NCBI GenBank assembly: GCA_001820175.1
Contig: MHOT01000019.1
Coordinates: forward strand, 1-49,382
DNA from: Candidatus Staskawiczbacteria bacterium RIFCSPHIGHO2_02_FULL_42_22
GTDB lineage: Bacteria; Patescibacteriota; Minisyncoccia; Minisyncoccales; Staskawiczbacteraceae
Length of the DNA: 49,382 bases
Reading direction: 5' to 3'
Positions 9,761 to 48,194 of this stretch are shown one piece after another. The notes beneath the pieces were generated by a model. That model did not search any database. It was not told the DNA's origin and saw only the letters and a list, made by a program, of their open reading frames with translations. Numbering within the stretch: the stretch's first letter is position 1; each line of letters begins with the position of its first letter. Both the position numbers and the translations under genes were made by a program.

Positions 9761-12139
9761 ATGAATACTCAAACCTACCAAGTAAGGGGGATGCATTGTG
9801 CTTCGTGCTCGGCCATTATAGAAAAAACCCTCAAAAAAGTGGATGGTGTTCAAAGTGTGGATGCAAATTTTGGCACTGAAGCGGTCAAGGTTGCTTTTGA
9901 TGCCGCCAAAACCAATCCCCAAGAACTTTCAAAAAAAATTGAGCCATTGGGATATTCGTTCATAGTTCCCACGCGTACAAATCATGGCGCTTCCACTCAG
10001 CGGACCTATCGCCGAGCTCAGCTCGGCGGCCAAACGGCAGACATTTCGGCTTCGCTCAGTGCGAGTCAAATGGGCATGAGTGAAGAGGAACACGCCGCGC
10101 ACACGGGTATTGGCCAATCCAAGCAAGAAAAATTAGCTGAAGTGGTTGACATGAAGATGAAAATTATCATGGTCATGCCCTTGGCCGCCTTTAGTATTTT
10201 TTTGATGGCGTGGGAAACATTGGCTACTGTTGGCCTGATGCCAAAAATGTCAGAAGTGCTCTTTGAGTTTTTCCATCACCTTTTGCCAATATTTGCCACG
10301 GCCACGTTTTTTGTCGCCGGTAAACCGTATCTCTTAGGTTTTTACCGCTTCTTGCGTTACGGCAAAGCCAACATGGATAGCCTTATTGGCATTGGCACCT
10401 CTGCTGCGTTTTTATACAGTTTCATCGTCACAGCATTTGAAGAACCATTGCGCCCATTCTTAAACGTTGAGAATGTCTATTATGATGTAACTATCGTTGT
10501 CATTGCATTTATTACCTTGGGTAAATACCTGGAAGCCAAAGCAAAAATAAAAACCGGCGATGCCATAGAAAAATTACTTAATCTGCAAGCCAAGACAGCA
10601 ATTGTCATTAAAGATGGTAAAGAGCAGGAGATTTCTATCAATCAGGTTGTACATGGAGATCAGATCGTAGTAAAACCCGGTACTCGTATTCCGGTGGACG
10701 GAACGGTATTTGACGGTTCGTCATTTGTCGACGAGTCTATGGTTACCGGTGAGTCTATGCCTACTGAGAAAGATACCGGGGATACGGTCGTTGCCGGAAC
10801 GATCAACACTACAGGATCATTCACGTTCAAGGCAACAAAGGTTGGATCTGAAACACTGCTTGCCCACATTATTAAAATGGTGGAAGAAGCACAGGGAAGC
10901 CGCGCCCCCATCCAAAAACTGGCCGATAAAATTTCATCCGTGTTTGTGCCAATTGTCATTGTTCTTGCTTTCCTCTCGCTTGGCGCGTGGCTGGTTATTG
11001 GCACTGCGTATTTTGGCTTTGCGCAGGCACTTTCGTATGCGCTGGTCTCATTTGTGGGAATTTTAGTCATTGCTTGTCCCTGTGCTCTGGGGCTTGCCAC
11101 TCCCACGGCCATTATTGTTGGAGTTGGAAAGGGGGCGAAGGAAGGTATTTTGATTAAAGATGCCACGACCCTGGAAAAACTCCATAAGGTCAATATCGTG
11201 GTGGTTGATAAGACCGGAACAATCACCAAAGGAAAGCCCCAAATCGTACATATACAAAACACCGCCGACCTTTCTGATGAGAAAATTATTTCTTTATTGG
11301 CTGCCCTGGAGAATAAATCCGAACACCCAATCGCCCATGCCGTTTTAGAATATGCAAAAGCAAAGGGTATTTCTTTTTTGCCGGTTTCTAACTTTGAAAT
11401 CATTAAGGGCAAAGGACTTAAGGCCGTCATAGAAAATGTTGAATACTTTGCCGGAAATACTAAATTAATATCCGATCTCAAATTATCTTTTGATTTAAAA
11501 AGGATCGAATTGGAAACTCTACAAGGAAAAACGCCCGTCATTCTCGCTACCAGTCAAAAAGTGTTGGGTGTGGTCATGGTGGCTGACGCAATCAAGCCCG
11601 AGGCAAAAGAAGCAGTCAAAAATCTCCATAAACTAGGGATCAAGACCGTTATGCTTACGGGTGACCATAAAAACACCGCGTTTGCTATTGCCAGGGAAGT
11701 AGGAATTGATGATGTGGTGGCCGAGGTGCTTCCCGATGAAAAACTTACCAAAATAAAAGAGTTGCAGCTTCAAGGTCATATTGTCGCAATGGCCGGTGAT
11801 GGTATTAATGATGCTCCGGCTCTAGCCCAGGCCGATGTTGGTATTGCCATGGCTACTGGTACGGATGTGGCCATTGAAACCGCGGGAATTACCTTGCTTG
11901 GCGGCGATATTTCAAAATTGGTCAAGGCCATTCGTCTTTCAAGGATTACCATGCGTGGCATCAAACAAAATTTGTTTTGGGCTTTTATTTATAATATTAT
12001 TGGTATTCCACTGGCCGGGGGTTTATTTTTCCCCATTTTCGGCTGGCTATTAAACCCTATTTTTGCGGGACTGGCCATGGCATTCTCAAGCGTATCAGTG
12101 GTCGGAAATTCGTTAAGGTTAAAGGCAAAGAAAATATAA
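9761..12139 (+). CDS. copA: Copper-translocating P1B-type ATPase
   Basis: HMA motif GMHCASC; CPC in IACPCALGLATPTAI; DKTGTIT; SEHPIAHA; GDGINDAPALAQADVGIAM. Confidence 0.95.
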   Translation: MNTQTYQVRGMHCASCSAIIEKTLKKVDGVQSVDANFGTEAVKVAFDAAKTNPQELSKKIEPLGYSFIVPTRTNHGASTQRTYRRAQLGGQTADISASLSASQMGMSEEEHAAHTGIGQSKQEKLAEVVDMKMKIIMVMPLAAFSIFLMAWETLATVGLMPKMSEVLFEFFHHLLPIFATATFFVAGKPYLLGFYRFLRYGKANMDSLIGIGTSAAFLYSFIVTAFEEPLRPFLNVENVYYDVTIVVIAFITLGKYLEAKAKIKTGDAIEKLLNLQAKTAIVIKDGKEQEISINQVVHGDQIVVKPGTRIPVDGTVFDGSSFVDESMVTGESMPTEKDTGDTVVAGTINTTGSFTFKATKVGSETLLAHIIKMVEEAQGSRAPIQKLADKISSVFVPIVIVLAFLSLGAWLVIGTAYFGFAQALSYALVSFVGILVIACPCALGLATPTAIIVGVGKGAKEGILIKDATTLEKLHKVNIVVVDKTGTITKGKPQIVHIQNTADLSDEKIISLLAALENKSEHPIAHAVLEYAKAKGISFLPVSNFEIIKGKGLKAVIENVEYFAGNTKLISDLKLSFDLKRIELETLQGKTPVILATSQKVLGVVMVADAIKPEAKEAVKNLHKLGIKTVMLTGDHKNTAFAIAREVGIDDVVAEVLPDEKLTKIKELQLQGHIVAMAGDGINDAPALAQADVGIAMATGTDVAIETAGITLLGGDISKLVKAIRLSRITMRGIKQNLFWAFIYNIIGIPLAGGLFFPIFGWLLNPIFAGLAMAFSSVSVVGNSLRLKAKKI

Positions 12140-12142
12140 TAG

Positions 12143-12232
12143 TGATCCGAATGATCCGAATTAGCATCCGAATGTTCCGAATCACGTTACTGTATTAGGA
12201 TCATTCGGATGATATTCGTAAATTAGGATCGC
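12143..12232. repeat. Word-repeat hairpin (gatccgaat units)
   Basis: gatccgaatgatccgaattagcatccgaatgttccgaatcacg then aggatcattcggatgatattcgtaaattaggatc. Confidence 0.65.
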
Positions 12233-12239
12233 TGATGAA

Positions 12240-13259
12240 ATGAAAACATACACATTCCACGTCAACGGCATGCACTGCAACGCGTGTGTGGTGCTGACCG
12301 AAAGCGAGCTAAATGATGTGCCAGAAGTATCGAAAGCAAAATCATCGCTTGTAAATCATAGCGTCCAAGTAACCGGCGAATTTGGCGATAAAGAACCAGA
12401 ACACATTGCGCGCGACTTGAGCGAAGTATTAAAACCGCATGGCTACGCACTTTCTCTTGAAAAACAGAATCATTTGGCAAAATGGTCGGATTTTAAGTTG
12501 GCATTTCCGATTGCCATCGGTTTTATTGCGTTATTTATTATGTTGCAGAAGATTGGCATCGTTAATTTGGTGACCGCATCAAGGGTTAGTTATGGCACAG
12601 CATTTGTCATTGGCCTTATTGCTTCTGTTTCTACCTGCATGGCGGTGGTGGGCGGCCTGGTGCTTTCCATGTCCGCCAATTTTGCCAAAGAGGGGGACAA
12701 AGTGCGTCCGCAGCTGCTATTTCATATTGGCCGACTGGCGTCATTTTTTGTGTTGGGGGGACTCATCGGCATGCTCGGGGCAGTGGTTCAATTCGGGCCC
12801 GCCGGCACCTTTTTTCTTAATATTACTATTGCCTTGGTGCTTCTTATATTGGGCATTAACCTGCTTGATATATTTCCCTTTGCAAAGAAGTTTCAGCCAA
12901 CGATACCCGGTTTTATTGGAAAACAGGTGCACGGCCTTAAAAATATCAACCACACCCTTACTCCTTTGCTGGTCGGTGTTGCCACCTTTTTTTTGCCTTG
13001 CGGTTTTACCCAATCCATGCAACTGTATACCTTGACCACCGGAAATTTTGTAACCGGCGCATTAATTATGGGGGCATTTGCCATTGGAACCCTTCCGGTG
13101 CTTGCCCTTTTAAGTTTCAGTTCACTGGGCATTCATAAAAAGGCGCAAAGCGGGGTGTTTTTTAAAACTGCGGGCCTTGTTGTTATATTTTTCGGAATTT
13201 TTAATGCAATGAATGCACTGGCTGCCGTAGGAATTATTTCCCCTCTATTTAGCTTTTAA
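12240..13259 (+). CDS. HMA domain + TauE/DsbD-like membrane protein
   Basis: N-term GMHCNAC HMA motif; multiple TM helices, VSTCMAVVGGLVLSMSANFA and FFLPCGFTQSMQLYTL. Confidence 0.85.
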   Translation: MKTYTFHVNGMHCNACVVLTESELNDVPEVSKAKSSLVNHSVQVTGEFGDKEPEHIARDLSEVLKPHGYALSLEKQNHLAKWSDFKLAFPIAIGFIALFIMLQKIGIVNLVTASRVSYGTAFVIGLIASVSTCMAVVGGLVLSMSANFAKEGDKVRPQLLFHIGRLASFFVLGGLIGMLGAVVQFGPAGTFFLNITIALVLLILGINLLDIFPFAKKFQPTIPGFIGKQVHGLKNINHTLTPLLVGVATFFLPCGFTQSMQLYTLTTGNFVTGALIMGAFAIGTLPVLALLSFSSLGIHKKAQSGVFFKTAGLVVIFFGIFNAMNALAAVGIISPLFSF

Positions 13260-14781: not shown

Positions 14782-14826
14782 CATTATTTTTTTATTGCCG
14801 AGGGTTTAATACCCTTTATTATGCGA

Positions 14827-14886
14827 CAAAAACCGCTTTTGCACAAAAACGGACGATCGTCCGTTTTTGTGCAAAAGCGGTTTTTT
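14827..14886. terminator. Long perfect palindrome, probable bidirectional terminator
   Basis: aaaaccgcttttgcacaaaaacggacgatcgtccgtttttgtgcaaaagcggtttt. Confidence 0.7.
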
Positions 14887-18955: not shown

Positions 18956-18969
18956 TTCTGTTATTATAC

Positions 18970-19026
18970 GACAAAAACCGTTTTTGCACAAAAACGTACG
19001 ATCGTACGTTTTTGTGCAAAAACGTC
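18970..19026. terminator. Long palindrome, sibling of 14827-14886
   Basis: gtttttgcacaaaaacgtacgatcgtacgtttttgtgcaaaaac. Confidence 0.6.
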
Positions 19027-19896: not shown

Positions 19897-20415
19897 ATGT
19901 TCAAACTTTTTTTTAAGATATTCAAAAATAAAAATAATGTAATTTCTATTAGTCGAACCGACATCAGCCAAGCTGAAATTATTGCTATCGGCCAAAAACT
20001 ACAAAAAAATATAAAGAAATTATTTAAGGGATCTTTAGCCATTAGACAGGTGGATGCCGGTTCTGATAATGCCTGCGAACAAGAGCTGGTGGCGCTTTCC
20101 AATGCTTTCTATGATGTTGAGCGTTTCGGAATTCATTTTGTGGCATCGCCCAGGCATGCAGATATGCTTTTGGTAACGGGTCCGGTGACTAAAAATATGC
20201 AAGAAGCGCTCAAGAGAGCTTATGAAGCTACGCCCGGCCCAAAAATCGTAGTGGCAGTCGGTGATGATGCTATAGACGGTGGTATCTATAAAAATTCTTA
20301 CGCGGTTTTAAATGGAGTCAATAATGTCATTCCGGTCAACTACCAAATACCGGGGGATCCGCCAAGCCCTAAGGCAATTCTTGTGGGGCTTTTACATATT
20401 CTTGAAACAATATAG
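19897..20415 (+). CDS. NuoB/HyfI/HycG-like small subunit lacking most [4Fe-4S] ligands
   Basis: FDVERFGI-like YDVERFGIHFVASPRHADMLLVTGPVTKNMQEALKRAYEATPGPKIVVAVGDDAIDGGIY...IPVNYQIPGDPPSPKAILVGLLHIL matches the HycG/HyfI framework; Cys positions replaced (DAGSDNACEQE, VGDDAIDGG, IPGDPP). Confidence 0.88.
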   Translation: MFKLFFKIFKNKNNVISISRTDISQAEIIAIGQKLQKNIKKLFKGSLAIRQVDAGSDNACEQELVALSNAFYDVERFGIHFVASPRHADMLLVTGPVTKNMQEALKRAYEATPGPKIVVAVGDDAIDGGIYKNSYAVLNGVNNVIPVNYQIPGDPPSPKAILVGLLHILETI

Positions 20416-20592
20416 AACAAACATTATCACTTTGCACTAAAGTCGCCTCAGGTTTGGCAATCTTGGGCGGCTTGGAACAAAAAATATGCGAGGCGTAGCC
20501 GAAGCTACGGCAAACATATTTTTTGTGAAAACTGCCCAAGATTGGCAAATCCGTTAAGAATTGGAGTGCAAAGTGATAATGTTTGTTCTATA
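20411..20592. repeat. MITE-like hairpin, TIR tatagaacaaacattatcactttgcact
   Basis: 28-nt terminal inverted repeat; a partial copy in opposite orientation at 40821-40955. Confidence 0.87.
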
Positions 20593-20599
20593 TAGAAGC

Positions 20600-22654
20600 A
20601 TGATAGACGTTATTATTTCTCAAATAATATTTATAGCATCATTGCTGTGTTTTACCGTCGGGGGTATCGGAGCTTTGTTACTCAGAAAAAACGATGCGAT
20701 CGCCAACATTTGGAGTAATTTTTTTGCAATATTGGCCTCCCTGTTCGGACTTTCGTTTGCGGCCCTCGCCGTTATGAGCGGAGGCGATACATCGTTTTCC
20801 ATTGGTGCGTTTTCCCTGCCTTTCTTTTCATTATCATTCCATATCGATCAACTGTCCGCCTTTTTTATTTTTATTATTTCGCTAATTTCCCTTTTTTGCT
20901 CTGTGTACGCCATCGGGTACGTGAAGCATTTTTATAAAAAATACGATATTGGTGTTCTTGGGTTTTTTTACAATATGTTTATTTTGGGAATGCTTTTGGT
21001 GGCATCTTCTTCCAACTGGCTATTTTTCTTGGTTGCCTGGGAGATTATGTCCATTGCCTCATACTTCCTGGTGATCTACGATCGCCACGACCAAAATAAT
21101 GTAAGGGCCGGGTTTTTGTATCTTATTATGACTCATGTTGGTACGGCTTTTATTATACTTGCCGCGTTATTGTTGTATAAATTCACCGGATCGTTTGATT
21201 TTGCTTCCATACAATCGGCTTCTTTGCTTATTCCCGCACCGATAAAGAATATTATTTTTATTTTCGCTATCATTGGTTTTGGCACAAAATCAGGTATTAT
21301 TCCGTTTCACATCTGGTTGCCCGATGCTCACCCCGCCGCCCCATCGCATGTATCCGCGCTCATGTCCGGTGTGATGATTAAAACGGGCATTTACATGATG
21401 ATAAGGATATTCCTTTACATGATTTGGCCGGTGCCAGTGTGGTGGGGACTTGCGTTGCTGGTATTGGGGTCGGTATCTTCTTTGCTGGGAGTACTGTATG
21501 CGCTCACGGAACACGACATCAAACGACTCTTGGCTTACCATAGCATTGAAAATATCGGCATTATCTTGCTGGGGCTTGGCAGTGCGCTGACTTTCTTGTC
21601 GCTTGGTATGCCCTCGCTGGCGCTTTTGGGTTTTACCGCAGCGCTTTTCCATACCTTAAACCATGCCATATTTAAATCATTGCTTTTCCTTGGCGCCGGT
21701 TCGGTGATCAGTCAGACCCATACGCGCAACATGGAAGAATATGGCGGACTTATCAAATATATGCCCTATACCGCACTATTTTTTCTCATCGGATCCATGG
21801 CCATATCGGCACTTCCTCCCTTTAACGGATTCTTCAGTGAATGGCTGACTTTCCAATCGCTTTTTGCAGGAATCACATTGTTATCGTTCTACGAAAAATG
21901 GATTTTCATCTTAGCGTCCGGTTCGCTGGCATTTACCGGAGGATTGGCGTTGGCATGTTTTGTGAAGGCCTTCGGAGCCACATTTTTGGCCCGTCCAAGG
22001 AGCAGTCACGTAAGCCACGCCAAAGAATCGTCCCTTTCTTTGCGCATTGGAATGGCCTCGCTGGCGCTATTATGTCTTTTACTGGGAATTGGCTCCGGGG
22101 TGATGACGGTGGTGCTGGAAGGTGTTGGAAAAAATATGGCTGTTTTCAAAAACGCCGCTTCGGTGGTTTCGTTGTCCGGCCAGCATATTGTTGTTGGCAA
22201 GAATTTTGCTTCCGTCTCTTTGCCTCTGCTCGCTCTATTTTTCATGGTCACTGGCGGCCTGGTAATATACATCACTAAGTTTATCATTAATAAGCATCAA
22301 AAAGTTGAGAATAATATAACCTGGGATTGTGGAACCGACTTAACGGAACGTATGGAAATAACGGCCACCGGATTTTCCCGTTCCATTATTCTCATTTTCC
22401 GGGGTATTTTACGGCCAAGCATCCAGCATGATATTCAATACCACGATGCCCAAAGCCGTTATTTGCCAAAGTCAAGAACCGTCATTTTAAAGGTGCATGA
22501 CGTATATCGGTATTACTTTTACCAGCCGCTCCACTTAGCAGTTAATGCCGTGTCTTCACGAGTGAAAAATATCCAAAGCGGTAATACCAACGCCTACATC
22601 CTTTATATCTTTATCGCTTTAATAATCACCTTACTTTCAGTATTATGGAAATAG
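20600..22654 (+). CDS. HyfB/NuoL-like antiporter-type membrane subunit
   Basis: Proton-antiporter fold: FLVAWEIMSIASYFLVIYD (TM5 Glu), IGFGTKSGIIPFHIWLPDAHPAAPSHVSALMSGVMIKTGIYMMIRI. Start placed at MIDVIISQ, outside the repeat. Confidence 0.9.
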   Translation: MIDVIISQIIFIASLLCFTVGGIGALLLRKNDAIANIWSNFFAILASLFGLSFAALAVMSGGDTSFSIGAFSLPFFSLSFHIDQLSAFFIFIISLISLFCSVYAIGYVKHFYKKYDIGVLGFFYNMFILGMLLVASSSNWLFFLVAWEIMSIASYFLVIYDRHDQNNVRAGFLYLIMTHVGTAFIILAALLLYKFTGSFDFASIQSASLLIPAPIKNIIFIFAIIGFGTKSGIIPFHIWLPDAHPAAPSHVSALMSGVMIKTGIYMMIRIFLYMIWPVPVWWGLALLVLGSVSSLLGVLYALTEHDIKRLLAYHSIENIGIILLGLGSALTFLSLGMPSLALLGFTAALFHTLNHAIFKSLLFLGAGSVISQTHTRNMEEYGGLIKYMPYTALFFLIGSMAISALPPFNGFFSEWLTFQSLFAGITLLSFYEKWIFILASGSLAFTGGLALACFVKAFGATFLARPRSSHVSHAKESSLSLRIGMASLALLCLLLGIGSGVMTVVLEGVGKNMAVFKNAASVVSLSGQHIVVGKNFASVSLPLLALFFMVTGGLVIYITKFIINKHQKVENNITWDCGTDLTERMEITATGFSRSIILIFRGILRPSIQHDIQYHDAQSRYLPKSRTVILKVHDVYRYYFYQPLHLAVNAVSSRVKNIQSGNTNAYILYIFIALIITLLSVLWK

Positions 22655-23574
22655 ATATCATTGTTTGGATACTGCAAATCATATTAGTGCCAGTGACGGC
22701 ACCGCTTTGCGTTGGTATTATAAGAAAGATAAAAGCCAAATTACAGAATCGCCGGGGTGCCGGCATATTTCAGCCGTATCGGGATCTATGGAAATTGTTT
22801 CATAAAGATGAAGTGATAAGCAAGGACGCTTCCTGGATTTTTAGATGCGCGCCCTATATTGTTTTTACCGTAACGATAGTGGTGGGAGCCAGTATTCCTC
22901 TTTTTGCATCGTATAGTGATGTCACCGGTTCAGGTAACCTGTTGGTCATCATCTACACGCTTGCCATTGGCACATTCTTTTTGGCGCTGGCGGGCATTGA
23001 TATCGGTGGCGCATTTGGAGGGTTTGGTTCAAGCCGCGAAATGACCATGGCGGCGCTGGCAGAAGGAGGGTTTATTTTTTCGTTGCTAACCGTTGGGATT
23101 ATCAGCGGTAGCACGGATCTGTTTGCAATCTCTCAAAATGGACTCATTCAACAAGGATACCTATTGCCCAGCACCCTGGCTTTTTTGGGGCTATGTATTG
23201 TATTGTTAGCTGAGACCGCTCGTTTTCCATTTGACAACCCGGCCACCCATTTGGAACTAACGATGATTCACGAAGCAATGATTTTGGAATATTCGGGGAA
23301 AAAACTGGCACTCATGGAATGGGCGTCCGCCAACAAACTCCTCATTTTTATTGCCCTGGCTTCAAATCTTTTTTTCCCATTCGGCCTGGCCCAGCATGCC
23401 GACAGCGGAGCTGTTTTGGTGGCCCTCGCGGTATTTGCGGTAAAAACCATTATTTTCTGTCTGGTAATCGCCCTGCTGGAATCGTTCATCGCCAAGTTCC
23501 GGTTTTTCCGCCTGCCCGATCTTTTAATGATTGCTTTTATTTTTAATGTGGTGGCAATTATTCTTATACATTAG
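22645..23574 (+). CDS. HyfC/HycD/NuoH-like membrane subunit
   Basis: GIFQPYRDLWKLFHKDEV...GSSREMTMAALAEGG...LAETARFPFDNPATHLELTMIHEAMILEYSGKKLALMEW. Confidence 0.92.
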   Translation: MEIDIIVWILQIILVPVTAPLCVGIIRKIKAKLQNRRGAGIFQPYRDLWKLFHKDEVISKDASWIFRCAPYIVFTVTIVVGASIPLFASYSDVTGSGNLLVIIYTLAIGTFFLALAGIDIGGAFGGFGSSREMTMAALAEGGFIFSLLTVGIISGSTDLFAISQNGLIQQGYLLPSTLAFLGLCIVLLAETARFPFDNPATHLELTMIHEAMILEYSGKKLALMEWASANKLLIFIALASNLFFPFGLAQHADSGAVLVALAVFAVKTIIFCLVIALLESFIAKFRFFRLPDLLMIAFIFNVVAIILIH

Positions 23575-23579
23575 AATCT

Positions 23580-24227
23580 ATGAGTACCTTATTTTTACAA
23601 TTTTTACTTCAAATTATTTTTTTAACCATTGTCTTTTTGCATATTACAAAAAAGAACCTTGATGCGATTTTTGCCTACGGAATTCAGTCCTTGGCAATTT
23701 TAATATTACTCATTAATTCGTTTTTTGAAACCGGCGACATTTCACTACTGTTCATTGCCCTATTGGTATGCATCGTCAAAGTTATTTTGGCGCCGGGCTT
23801 TTTTGCCCAATTAATTAAAAAAAACGAGTTAATATTTTCAGCCAGCACATATCTTAATATGCCCCTAACCTTAGTTGTTTTAGCCACACTGACCGCCATG
23901 GCCCATTCTTATCGGTTTTCTCCCATCACCAATATTATTCCTGCTAACGAAACACTGCTCTCATTGGCGCTTTCTACCATGTTTTTATCTCTTTTTTTAA
24001 TCGTCAACCGCAAGGGAGCACTGTCGCAAATCATCGGCATCCTTTCGCTGGAAAACAGCATTGTGGCTTTTGCTATTTTTGCCGGACTGGAACAGTCGCT
24101 TGGTCTGCAAATCGGTATTTTGTTTGATATTTCCATTTGGCTTATTATTGCTACAGTGTTTATTTCAATGATTTACAAGCAATTCGGATCGCTCGACGTT
24201 ACCGATATGAAAAAATTAAAAGAGTAA
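23580..24227 (+). CDS. HyfE/NuoK-like membrane subunit
   Basis: 215 aa, multiple TM helices, position between HyfC- and HyfF-like genes; GILSLENSIVAFAIF resembles HyfE. Confidence 0.8.
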   Translation: MSTLFLQFLLQIIFLTIVFLHITKKNLDAIFAYGIQSLAILILLINSFFETGDISLLFIALLVCIVKVILAPGFFAQLIKKNELIFSASTYLNMPLTLVVLATLTAMAHSYRFSPITNIIPANETLLSLALSTMFLSLFLIVNRKGALSQIIGILSLENSIVAFAIFAGLEQSLGLQIGILFDISIWLIIATVFISMIYKQFGSLDVTDMKKLKE

Positions 24228-24244
24228 CATTCAAAGAATATTAT

Positions 24245-25714
24245 ATGTATCAAACAGAATTACTATTTATTTTAATATCTCTCTTTGCTGCGGCATTGTT
24301 GTGTTTTTTGTCTCGAAACCGACGGCTCATTGAGGTATCTTCGCTGGTTGCCTCTGGTATTGCCCTCATGGAATCAGTTGCTATTTCCCTTCAAGTGGCG
24401 CATTTTGGAGCGAATGTATCTGGTTTTTTCTCCACAGATGCACTAGAAGCTGTAATCATGCTCATTATTGCAGTTGTTGGATTTACCTCAACCGTATATT
24501 CCATTGAGTACCTTCGCCGGGAGACCAGCAAAAATATTATTGGATTGTCAGGAGTAAGCCATCTGCGTTCAAGAGTCAGGGAATATTTTATTTTGTTGAA
24601 TCTTTTCATGGCGATGATGTTTTTGGCTATTACGGTTTCCAGTCCGATATTTGCCTGGATTTTCATTGAAGCCACCACGCTTTCCACCGCATTTTTAATC
24701 AGTTTTTATAATAAACCATCTTCTATTGAGGGAGCATGGAAATACTTAATCATCAACTCCATTGGTATATTACTGGCATTTTTCGGAACATTGTTATTTT
24801 TCCCGGCCATGAATTCGGGTATCGGTAACGGACTTATCACCTGGCATTTACTTGCAACCAGTGCCGCTAATCTTGATCCGTTGGTTATTAAGGTGGCTTT
24901 TATTTTTATTTTTATAGGATATGGAACCAAAGTGGGATTCGCTCCGATGCACACCTGGAAACCCGATGCCTACAGCAGGGCACCGGCTCCTATTGGCGCG
25001 TTATTTTCGGGGGCTTTATTGCCGGTTGCTTTTGCCGTTATCTTGAAATTTAAAATGATAACTGATGCTACCGTGGGATCATTATTTAGCCAGAATTTAT
25101 TTATTATTTTCGGGTTATTGTCGGTGGCCATTGCGGCAGCTATTATATTTGTTTCCAGAAACTACAAACGGCTTCTGGCTTATTCCAGCATTGAAAATGC
25201 GGGAATCATGGCCCTTGGTTTTGCCTTTGGCGGCCTGGGTATTTTTGCGGCCATGCTCCACATGGTATACCATTCTTTTATCAAATCGGCGCTTTTTTTC
25301 TCATCGGGAAACCTGCTTCTTGCATACCATTCTGCCAAAATCGCCAGCGTTAGGGGGGTGATTAATATTATTCCCGTTACAGCGGTACTTTTTTTAACCG
25401 GGTTTTTTGCCATAACCGGAGCACCGCCGTTTGGAATATTTTTCACTAAAATATTCATTCTTTCGGCCGGCATTAAAGAACACCCCTTTATCGTCGCCAC
25501 GGTAGTATTGCTGGCGACCATCTTATTTATTGGATTTTTAAAGCACGCCAGCGCCATGGTTTTCGGGCAGCCCCCGGCCGATATTGTAAAAGAAAAAGAA
25601 GGTCTGTGGCTCATCATCCCACCCATTGCGCTTATGGCCCTTGCGTTATTGTTAAGTTTTTACATTCCGCCATTTTTATATACGTTGCTTAATAAGATTG
25701 CTTTGCATTATTAA
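24245..25714 (+). CDS. HyfF/NuoN-like antiporter-type membrane subunit
   Basis: FAWIFIEATTLSTAFLISFY and IGYGTKVGFAPMHTWKPDAYSRAPAPIGALFSGALLPVAFAVILKFK. Start at MYQTELLF. Confidence 0.9.
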   Translation: MYQTELLFILISLFAAALLCFLSRNRRLIEVSSLVASGIALMESVAISLQVAHFGANVSGFFSTDALEAVIMLIIAVVGFTSTVYSIEYLRRETSKNIIGLSGVSHLRSRVREYFILLNLFMAMMFLAITVSSPIFAWIFIEATTLSTAFLISFYNKPSSIEGAWKYLIINSIGILLAFFGTLLFFPAMNSGIGNGLITWHLLATSAANLDPLVIKVAFIFIFIGYGTKVGFAPMHTWKPDAYSRAPAPIGALFSGALLPVAFAVILKFKMITDATVGSLFSQNLFIIFGLLSVAIAAAIIFVSRNYKRLLAYSSIENAGIMALGFAFGGLGIFAAMLHMVYHSFIKSALFFSSGNLLLAYHSAKIASVRGVINIIPVTAVLFLTGFFAITGAPPFGIFFTKIFILSAGIKEHPFIVATVVLLATILFIGFLKHASAMVFGQPPADIVKEKEGLWLIIPPIALMALALLLSFYIPPFLYTLLNKIALHY

Positions 25715-25892
25715 GGCCCCTTCCATTACTAAATTGATATCTTACGCCCACTGCATCTTTGACTACAAGCACTATTCAATCGCAATATTCCTTGCCGTAC
25801 CCAAGGTACGGCTCGAAATATTGCTCAATCATAGTGCCTGCATTCAAAGCGCATTGAACGTAATCTTATCAATTTATTAATGGAAGGGGCCT
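25714..25892. repeat. MITE-like hairpin, TIR aggccccttccatta
   Basis: aggccccttccattactaaattgata...tatcaatttattaatggaaggggcct; apex gccgtacccaaggtacggc. Confidence 0.85.
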
Positions 25893-25905
25893 AAAAATAG
25901 TTATT

Positions 25906-27474
25906 ATGACCATAGAAAATATACAACAGTATCTCCCTAAAAACGCAAAAGTTGAAATTTGCGACAACATCGCCTTTTTTGAGGTATCGGCTTTTGAGAT
26001 TAAAGAAATTGCCGTTGATTTACAGGCCAAAGGCGCGATAATGAACCTCATTAGCGCCACCGATGAAGGGGGGGGGCAGGGAGGATTCAATATTTGGTAT
26101 GTGTTTGGCCTTCCTAAAAAAAATATATTTATCATTCCCTTTATTCGATTGCAGCATACTACCGAATTCCCTTCATTGACTCCGGCTATCCATAGCGCCT
26201 GTAATTTCGAAAAAAAGATACACACCTTTTTCGGACTCACTCCCGTGGGCCACCCTGATTTAAGACCGATTCTCCTGCATGAAAACTGGCCCGTCGATGT
26301 ATTCCCGTTAAGAAAAGATTTTGACTGGCAAACAAAAACCAAAGATGTGCAAAGGCCCTATTTATTTCAAAAAGTAGAGGGGGAGGGTGTTTACGAAATA
26401 CCGGTCGGCCCGATTCATGCCGGCATCATAGAACCGGGGCATTTCAGGTTTAGTGTTGCCGGGGAAGAAATCCTGCTCCTGGAAGCAAAACTTGGCTTCG
26501 TTCACAAGGGTAGTGAAAAATTATTTGAGGTACTCGGTCTTGGCGACAAGGTACGTCTTTCAGAAAAAATCTCTGGAGACAGTTCGTTCAGCCATTCACT
26601 GGCCTTCTGTCAGGCCGTGGAGCAATTAAGCGGTGTTACAGTTCCGGAACGCGCCCTTTATTTGCGCGTCATCTATGCGGAACTGGAAAGATTGGCAAAT
26701 CATTTCGGCGATATCGGCGCCATTATGATTGATACCGGTTTTAATTTTGGCGGCGCCAATGGGGCAAGATTACGGGAAATAATAATGCAAATAAATGAAC
26801 GATTGACCGGAAGCCGGTTTTTACGCGGCGCAGGCGCCATCGGTGGGGTTTTAAAAGATATTAATGCAAAAGAAGCCGTGGCATTGGGCAGGCATCTTGA
26901 AAAAATACGGAAAGATTTTTTAGAAGTCATTGCAATTGCAGAAAATAGCACGTCGCTATTAAATCGCTTGACGGATACCGGTGTGCTTTTGGCAAAAACC
27001 GCTCAAGATTATGGGGCTCTAGGAGTTGCCGCTCGCGCCGTTGGTATTATCTTTGATGCGCGCGTTGATTTTCCTTATGCGGCTTACGCCAAATTAGATT
27101 TCAATACGGTTGAAACCGAATCAGACGGCGATGTGTATGGGCGATTTAAAGTTCGCATCAAGGAATCCTTTGCCTCAATAAACCTCATTAAAAACGCATT
27201 AACTAAGCTGCCAAAAGGACCGGTGCATGTAAACATAGAAAATGTAGTATTCAAAAAAAATGCCTTGGCCCTTGGTGTTGTTGAGGGATGGCGCGGCCAA
27301 ATAATATATTTTATCACTACCGATGCATCGGGCAATATAAACAAGGTTACGCCCTGCGACCCGTCATTTTTAAATTGGCCCTTGGTTTCAGAAGTGGGTG
27401 CCGGCAATGTGGTGCCTGATTTCCCTTTAATTAATAAAAGTTTTAATTTATCCTACTCGGGAAACGATGTATAA
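25906..27474 (+). CDS. HyfG/HycE-like fused NuoC-NuoD large subunit lacking [NiFe] cysteines
   Basis: NuoC part FGLTPVGHPDLRPILLHENWPVDVFPLRKDF; NuoD part LGFVHKGSEKLFEVLGLGDKVRLSEKISGDSSFSHSLAFCQAVEQLSG...VPERALYLRVIYAELERLANH. C-term CDPSFLNW where DPCxxC is expected. Confidence 0.92.
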   Translation: MTIENIQQYLPKNAKVEICDNIAFFEVSAFEIKEIAVDLQAKGAIMNLISATDEGGGQGGFNIWYVFGLPKKNIFIIPFIRLQHTTEFPSLTPAIHSACNFEKKIHTFFGLTPVGHPDLRPILLHENWPVDVFPLRKDFDWQTKTKDVQRPYLFQKVEGEGVYEIPVGPIHAGIIEPGHFRFSVAGEEILLLEAKLGFVHKGSEKLFEVLGLGDKVRLSEKISGDSSFSHSLAFCQAVEQLSGVTVPERALYLRVIYAELERLANHFGDIGAIMIDTGFNFGGANGARLREIIMQINERLTGSRFLRGAGAIGGVLKDINAKEAVALGRHLEKIRKDFLEVIAIAENSTSLLNRLTDTGVLLAKTAQDYGALGVAARAVGIIFDARVDFPYAAYAKLDFNTVETESDGDVYGRFKVRIKESFASINLIKNALTKLPKGPVHVNIENVVFKKNALALGVVEGWRGQIIYFITTDASGNINKVTPCDPSFLNWPLVSEVGAGNVVPDFPLINKSFNLSYSGNDV

Positions 27475-29550: not shown

Positions 29551-29697
29551 TAATTTGAAATTTACAATTTGAAATTTGAAATCAATATTAAATGTTTTAA
29601 TAATTAAATTTGAAAACGTCGTGTCGGGTTTCCATCATTTCAAATTCACTTTTTTCAAATTGATTTCAAATTTCAAATTGTAAATTTCAAATTAAAA
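29551..29697. repeat. AT-rich word-repeat hairpin
   Basis: aatttgaaatttacaatttgaaatttgaaatcaa...gaaaacgtcg...ttgatttcaaatttcaaattgtaaatttcaaatt. Confidence 0.85.
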
Positions 29698-40797: not shown

Positions 40798-40989
40798 CGT
40801 CATTGCGAGGAGCCCCGATCGCAATCTTGGGCAGTTTTCACAAAAAATATGTTTGCCGTAGCTACGGCTACGCCAAACATATTTTTTGCTCCAATCCGCC
40901 CAATATTGCCAAACCGCCGGCGACTTTAGTGCAAAGTGATAATGTTTGTTCTATAGATTGCTTCGTCGCTGTGGCTTCTCGCAATGACG
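40798..40989. repeat. CGTCATTGCGAG...CTCGCAATGACG repeat hosting element 40821-40955
   Basis: ccgtcattgcgaggagccccgatcgcaatc ... gattgcttcgtcgctgtggcttctcgcaatgacg. Confidence 0.8.
40821..40955. repeat. Partial copy of element 20411-20592
   Basis: caatcttgggcagttttcacaaaaaatatgtttgccgtagct.cggctacg...gactttagtgcaaagtgataatgtttgttctata, near-identical to the reverse complement of 20411-20592. Confidence 0.88.
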
Positions 40990-47486: not shown

Positions 47487-48194
47487 ACGGCCATTGCTTT
47501 GCAATGGGAATTTGAAATTTACAATTTGAAATTTGAAATCAATTTGAAATGATTCAATGTTTCAATTTGAAAACGTGGAATTTCCATTGCAGGGCGATGG
47601 TGTCTGTGTCTCACGCGTTTGGCATGGTGCCAGACAGTGTAAAAATTTAGCTATATGCTGGAAACTCCGAGTATCCGACACTACCCCGATTGTTTCGTGG
47701 GTAAAAATGTGTTCGGTGCGGACAATCAGCAGGGAAGATCAAAAAAAGGAGACCGTGATGAATAAAGTCAGTTGTAACTTTTGTGGTAATGCGAAGAAAT
47801 ATGCACTAGAGGAATTGACGTCCAGAACACATCTGGGTCGAAAAGTTCTCCAGTGTCCTATTTGCAGAACGCACCTCTTCATCGAAGAAGGGGGTGAACT
47901 CCGCAAAACAAGCATGACTACCCTTGAATCAAAGGATGATACAAGATCATTTGAATGATCCCCTCAGAGACTACACGCTAGACAATTAAACAGAATGGGC
48001 GAAAGGCATTCGCCAAGTAGCCCACATTTTTTAATTGATGATATAGTCCGGACTGCATAGCGATATGCAGAGTTAACCAGAAATGAGTTAACCATGCACA
48101 ACGAGTTTGAGTAATTTCAAATTGAATTATTGAAACATTGATTTCAAATTTCAAATTGTAAATTTCAAATTCATTGTTGCATAGCAACAATGCG
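47487..48194 (+). mobile_element. Group I intron C in 16S rRNA (E. coli ~793 site)
   Basis: Spliced GGATTAGAT|ACCCTTGTAGTCC; aatttagctatatgctggaaact, aatcagcagggaag, cctcagagactacacg, gatatagtccgg. Confidence 0.9.
47758..47958 (+). CDS. Small intron-encoded zinc-ribbon-like protein
   Basis: MNKVSCNFCGNAKKYALEELTSRTHLGRKVLQCPICRTHLFIEEGGELRKTSMTTLESKDDTRSFE; RBS aaaggagaccgtg. Confidence 0.6.
   Translation: MNKVSCNFCGNAKKYALEELTSRTHLGRKVLQCPICRTHLFIEEGGELRKTSMTTLESKDDTRSFE

Follow-up and report, generated by a model that had tools for sequence, protein, structure and literature searches.

The six-gene operon at 19897-27474, on the + strand of contig MHOT01000019.1, falls within the complex I superfamily on the branch of Ehr, the energy-converting hydrogenase-related complexes, is under purifying selection and, judged from its aligned ligand positions, contains no complete site for any known redox cofactor. 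The window, that is, the whole stretch of DNA analysed here, comprises 49,382 nt of this contig (assembly GCA_001820175.1, Candidatus Staskawiczbacteria bacterium RIFCSPHIGHO2_02_FULL_42_22). The home genome is a CPR genome of 0.82 Mb (95% complete), and its owner is a tiny bacterium that is probably symbiotic. As a preliminary description of the window had proposed, the operon runs from a small subunit through HyfB, HyfC, HyfE and HyfF to a fused NuoC-NuoD large subunit, in six intact open reading frames with a Pfam or NCBIfam match for every product; the match of HyfE to PF00420 is weak and under the Pfam cut-off, but the NCBIfam HyfE model does recognize it. The features of the region are as follows.

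19897-20415, + strand: small subunit (NuoB/HyfI/EhrS-like, 172 aa; PF01058, E=1.7e-26)
20410-20593, no strand: 184-bp element separating the small subunit from HyfB, bounded by perfect 29-bp terminal inverted repeats (hairpin z=-13.8)
20600-22654, + strand: HyfB, antiporter-like subunit of NuoL/MrpA type whose C-terminal part carries the ND3-like loop WDCG (PF00361, E=8.6e-63; NF005086, E=5e-199)
22645-23574, + strand: HyfC, membrane anchor resembling NuoH/ND1, carrying the E-channel acids and an ND1 loop of sequence DNPATHLEL (PF00146, E=1.3e-47)
23580-24227, + strand: HyfE, NuoK/MrpC-like subunit (NF008556, E=1.4e-14)
24245-25714, + strand: HyfF, second antiporter-like subunit of NuoN/M, MrpD type (PF00361, E=4.3e-43)
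25715-25895, no strand: insert of ~180 bp separating HyfF from the large subunit and flanked by GGCCCCTTCCAT...ATGGAAGGGGCC, which form an imperfect inverted repeat (direct reading)
25906-27474, + strand: large subunit (fused NuoC-NuoD/HyfG/EhrL-like, 522 aa; PF00346 and PF00329)

The start of HyfB is most likely ATG 20600, since the alternative TTG 20561 falls within the repeat element, and that of HyfF is most likely ATG 24245.

Matches to the large subunit were obtained in 16 of 380 genomes spread over the phylum, of which about 13 are of the Ehr type; three genomes (G072, G096 and G113) keep the [NiFe] cysteines and encode ordinary group 4 hydrogenases. Within the home genus the operon is present in 4 of 13 genomes, and the genus-mates that carry it are labelled Candidatus Staskawiczbacteria. 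The same gene order, which the preliminary description had suggested looking for in relatives, recurs in nearly all the CPR loci recovered from about 20 CPR genomes, some of them cut by contig ends; in the most divergent CPR locus (L059) the small-subunit gene is placed after that of the large subunit. In a large-subunit tree with few hydrogenase references and some long branches, the CPR sequences are monophyletic (100/97) and join the non-CPR Ehr (96/94), grouping with other Ehr and apart from the hydrogenases. The CPR complex is a conserved Ehr variant, not a new superfamily.

Ehr complexes, a group reportedly defined by Marreiros in 2013, have been described before, but we know of no function established for them. 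Other Ehr have been linked by inference to formate dehydrogenase (PMC6349859; PMC7894505). In the CPR Ehr clade that Jaffe et al. reported in 2020 (PMC7304191), the same small and large subunits occur together with antiporter-like, NuoH-like and NuoK-like subunits, and the monophyly of its large subunits agrees with the tree obtained here. The absence of both [NiFe] motifs from these large subunits was already published in that work, which removes part of the novelty of the present operon. The open papers searched do not describe the missing small-subunit cluster, the retention of the coupling loops or the adjacency to ATP synthase genes, and a paper on Patescibacteria and Ehr (PMC9469722) and a survey of complex I (PMC12361115) do not deal with the subject; these three features are provisionally regarded as new, the search having covered the open literature.

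Cofactor sites of the soluble arm

In the large subunit, three alignments place KISGDSSFSHS at the position of RVCGICGFAHS, and both cysteines are replaced by serine, as initially noted. The preliminary description was also right that both C-terminal cysteines are absent, but it had located the loss at CDPSFLNW, a placement ruled out by three alignments: this segment pairs with CRAATYANW of HyfG, a conserved stretch without ligands. The true counterpart of DPCYSCTD is NLSYSGND, at residues 514-521 (window ~27445-27468), where one cysteine has become Ser and the other Gly; these are the last residues of the protein, which has no cleavable C-terminal extension. The large subunit resembles those of group 4 hydrogenases and lacks both [NiFe] cysteine pairs, as Ehr do, and neither the four NiFe-binding cysteines nor the maturation genes of group 4 [NiFe] hydrogenases (Hyf/Hyc/Mbh/Ech) are present, HypD being absent from 15 of the 16 operon genomes, the home genome among them. 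The large subunit is predicted to have the usual fold (AlphaFold pLDDT 87; best Foldseek match 7z0s_E, HycE, TM 0.90), with low confidence for the GPIHAGIIEPGH loop in the monomer model. A further cysteine, Cys235 (window ~26608-26610), lies in a helix directly after the former active-site motif and is found in 31 of 32 Ehr sequences, CPR and non-CPR; HyfG, NuoCD and the CPR hydrogenase of the alignment have no equivalent.

In the small subunit, the four positions that should bind the proximal (N2-type) [4Fe-4S] cluster read Asp, Cys, Asp and Asp (GSDNAC, GDDA, PGDPP), with Cys60 as the sole cysteine kept; the preliminary description had overlooked this loss. Among 18 CPR small subunits, ligands 1, 3 and 4 are never Cys, while ligand 2 remains Cys in 13, the other five having Glu or Ala. 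A metal site built from the replacing Asp residues is not favoured, as these positions vary among D, T, S, N, G and E across CPR. The N-terminal ferredoxin domain is missing too, and no Fe-S subunit for electron input is encoded in or near the operon of the window, in keeping with what had been reported for the cluster; beside the other operons, no Fe-S motif protein was found except within L059 and in one distant ORF of L010. The predicted fold is again usual (AlphaFold pLDDT 86; Foldseek 7z0s_G and 6cfw_J), with HycG and MbhJ as the best solved relatives. Taken over the 18-20 CPR sequences available for each subunit, the ligands of both known cofactors are missing or incomplete. The divergent CPR small subunit of L059 (9159-9902) keeps an N-terminal ferredoxin-like motif and has no proximal-cluster ligands. 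Two Ehr from Actinobacteria (L021 and L025) have small subunits without all four proximal cysteines, and they fall in a separate clade of the tree; loss of these cysteines therefore occurred more than once.

This combination sets the operon apart from each of the known systems that it resembles. Ehr small subunits of Alphaproteobacteria and Terriglobia possess all four proximal cysteines and a fused N-terminal ferredoxin domain, both of which the CPR form has lost; the latter is nevertheless treated here as an Ehr variant, because no definition of Ehr found in the open literature demands the proximal site. The closest solved folds are those of E. coli hydrogenase-4 and formate hydrogenlyase, FHL (HyfA-J, HycA-I), with homologous HyfB, HyfC, HyfE and HyfF subunits and conserved coupling loops, but the operon lacks their [NiFe] ligands, their Fe-S ligand set and HyfA, HyfH and HyfD. 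The membrane-bound sulfane reductase (MBS) of Pyrococcus furiosus is likewise a complex I relative without [NiFe] function (PMC7684303), yet it keeps three [4Fe-4S] clusters, the proximal one held by three cysteines and catalytic, together with ferredoxin input, whereas at most one such cysteine is left here. Respiratory complex I (Nuo) shares NuoB, CD, H, K and L/M/N-type subunits and the E-channel, but its NADH module and its NuoI, NuoA and NuoJ genes are absent here, as are the N2 cluster in NuoB and the electron-input module that mark complex I, Fpo and NDH-1. Finally, Mrp-type Na+/H+ antiporters carry out no redox chemistry and have homologous antiporter subunits and a NuoK/MrpC-like subunit, but they consist of MrpA-G only, with MrpE/F/G and no soluble arm or NuoB/NuoD/NuoH-like subunits; the present operon is the reverse, with PF01058, PF00346 and PF00146 and no MrpE/F/G-like gene within it.

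Ion pathway, selection and genomic context

The membrane subunits had been described as retaining the Glu and Lys residues of ion translocation, and the alignments confirm it. Residues E161, K243 and E427 of HyfB (numbered from TTG 20561) and E140, E190, E204, E210 and E215 of HyfC are conserved, K67 and E158 of HyfE show no variation in CPR, and E178, K265 and K383 of HyfF (numbered from TTG 24137) are invariant; the conserved channel residues include the equivalents of E144 and K229/K234 of NuoL/M, E407 of NuoM and E157 of NuoH. Across about 20 CPR genomes the antiporter Glu and Lys residues, the E-channel and the coupling loops are nearly invariant. The beta1-beta2 loop of the large subunit reads EIPVGP[IV]HAGIIEPGHFRF, the ND1-like loop of HyfC D[DN]P.THLEL, and the ND3-like loop of HyfB WDCG in nearly all CPR copies (WECG in L054, WGCA in L059). 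Their counterparts in E. coli FHL, together with the cysteine of the ND3 loop, connect the catalytic arm to the membrane part (PMC9474812).

Comparison of four genus-mates in pairs gives dN/dS of ~0.04-0.15, far under 1, for all six genes where computable, with dS near or at saturation, so that the values are approximate and demonstrate constraint rather than its exact strength. Together with the intact reading frames, the absence of frameshifts and the gene order shared by about 20 CPR genomes, they rule out chance and a decaying or pseudogenized operon. Invariant residues of the NuoD domain are ~7-fold enriched around the former active site, the motif limits having been drawn by eye after viewing the alignment, so the p-value of this enrichment should not be read at face value. 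The redox centres had been called apparently eroded, a misleading term for a region that is among the most conserved parts of the complex.

Gene families were searched for one at a time in drafts mostly >90% complete, and single absences weigh less than the overall pattern. NuoF is absent from all 16 operon genomes and COX1 from all 25 genomes searched, the home genome included in both, and a UbiA-type prenyltransferase from 12 of the 16, again with the home genome among them, a UbiA-family gene being present in the other four. Membrane pyrophosphatase occurs in 11 of 16 operon genomes. PF00999 Na+/H+ exchangers occur in 9 of 16 and in none of nine operon-less genus-mates searched; they are, if anything, commoner in operon genomes, so the complex does not replace them, and the idea that the operon compensates for missing exchangers is not supported.

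Genes for F1Fo-ATP synthase were identified in all 16 operon genomes, in 15 through the c subunit and in the home genome through a gamma subunit cut by a contig end, against 233 of 380 genomes of the phylum with a c subunit (Fisher p=0.015 for c subunits, uncorrected for relatedness). Na+-type c rings carry a Gln; the recovered c subunits lack it and are of the H+ type by motif. In five of ~17 lineages (L011, G359, G288, G244 and L013) atp genes lie within ~10 kb of the operon, and in L011 atpC ends 136 bp upstream of it on the same strand. A rough binomial, with a per-locus chance of 2.7% that is our own estimate from genome and cluster size, gives 7e-5 for 5/17 and 1.5e-3 for 3/9, and since the five cases fall in about three independent clades of the large-subunit tree, a chance of ~1e-3 is the more appropriate figure. 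No other conserved partner gene was found near the operon, and within the window the operon does not adjoin atp genes. In L013 and L052, the Ehr operon and its neighbours lie between atpD and atpC, with the atp genes on the opposite strand.

Possible modes of action

The preliminary description had envisaged a complex whose driving force is neither H2 nor quinone chemistry, or else an antiporter that is passive or regulated. That direction fits the evidence, even though one motif was misplaced, the word eroded was misleading and the [NiFe] loss was already in print, and it is strengthened because the last Fe-S cluster, the electron-input domain and, in the home genome, UbiA and the [NiFe] maturation genes are missing as well. 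The best explanation, which we hold tentatively and at a little under even confidence, is that this six-subunit CPR-type Ehr is a redox-free ion translocator linked to the proton motive force, probably a cation/H+ antiporter, gated by its former catalytic arm. It would be a membrane machine with the fold of complex I that no longer carries electrons, in which HyfB and HyfF may carry H+ across the membrane in exchange for Na+, K+ or another cation of this kind, powered by the proton motive force that F1Fo-ATPase and membrane pyrophosphatase would supply. The small subunit, the large subunit and HyfC would form the gate, and binding of a small ligand, or a change of charge in the old active-site chamber, would shift the beta1-beta2, ND1 and ND3 loops and so open or close the E-channel; the whole would amount to an Mrp-like antiporter with a redox-dead hydrogenase arm as its regulator. 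Points against this explanation are the lack in the operon of the MrpB/E/F/G subunits of a true Mrp, a conservation of the old chamber beyond the needs of a passive antiporter, the PF00999 exchangers present alongside the complex, the concentration of the five adjacency cases in about three clades and the separation of operon and atp genes in the window itself.

The chamber conservation bears on a second reading, in which the chamber that once served [NiFe] or quinone would host a non-redox reaction, or bind and release a metabolite, and so drive pumping through the conserved coupling loops as quinone chemistry does in complex I, a possibility we consider rather unlikely. Even with no cofactor left, the loops of the former active site rank among the most conserved parts, the E-channel is intact, and the near-universal Cys235 of Ehr, absent from the aligned hydrogenases and NuoCD, would fit such a primary pump, but no energy-rich non-redox reaction is known for the complex I fold, and ATP synthase is the only conserved neighbour, with no gene for a candidate substrate or partner enzyme beside the operon. 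Cys235, kept in 19 of 20 CPR large subunits, and Cys60, kept in 13 of 18 small ones, could alternatively point to retained redox chemistry, with a diffusible or salvaged cofactor (a host quinone, a flavin or these thiols) taking up electrons or hydride in the chamber. CPR cells may import lipids, which would make the absence of UbiA compatible with a salvaged quinone, four operon genomes do have a UbiA-family gene, and the divergent copy in L059 has a ferredoxin-like N-terminal domain. Yet Cys60 is Glu or Ala in the other five CPR copies, one or two cysteines do not suffice for a [4Fe-4S] cluster, and the lack of NuoF throughout and of adjoining Fe-S motif proteins outside L059 and the distant L010 ORF makes this reading improbable. 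The adjacency of atp genes in several lineages would also suit a structural or regulatory relic that translocates no ions and acts as a scaffold or modulator, for instance of F1Fo-ATP synthase; this is very improbable, given that antiporter Glu and Lys and E-channel acids needless in a pure scaffold have stayed near-invariant over long divergence.

Turning back to the gated, redox-free translocator, we rate as evenly balanced the claim, made from sequence comparison, that ion translocation of the complex I family operates here without any redox cofactor, with the chamber as a ligand-operated gate and in partnership with the CPR F1Fo-ATP synthase. The link between electron transfer and ion pumping in complex I is a matter of debate. 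A natural relative with the loops and channels but no electron path separates the two halves of that question in a small six-gene system suited to testing it; if the claim is true, electron transfer is not required for the coupling of complex I. The system also suggests a way in which tiny CPR bacteria that lack a respiratory chain may handle ion gradients with an ATP synthase.

Repeats and other features of the window

The 184-bp element between the small-subunit and HyfB genes is not part of the machine. It has a second site in the window (40821-40955) and 76 full or partial matches in the home genome, both palindrome strands counted, with 10 matches in one genus-mate and none in the other eleven searched, and it looks like a recently active MITE. 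The ~180-bp insert between HyfF and the large subunit is absent from genus-mates, relatives showing short gaps at that point, and probably represents another family of mobile element. For so small a genome the contig is rich in repeats, and further dispersed repeats, mostly intergenic, occur at 14816-14879 and 18961-19024 and at 29552-29619 and 47509-47576 of the window. At 9761-13259, a P-type ATPase with a heavy-metal domain lies beside a DsbD-like protein that has a heavy-metal domain fused to it, and the two look like a metal-handling pair.
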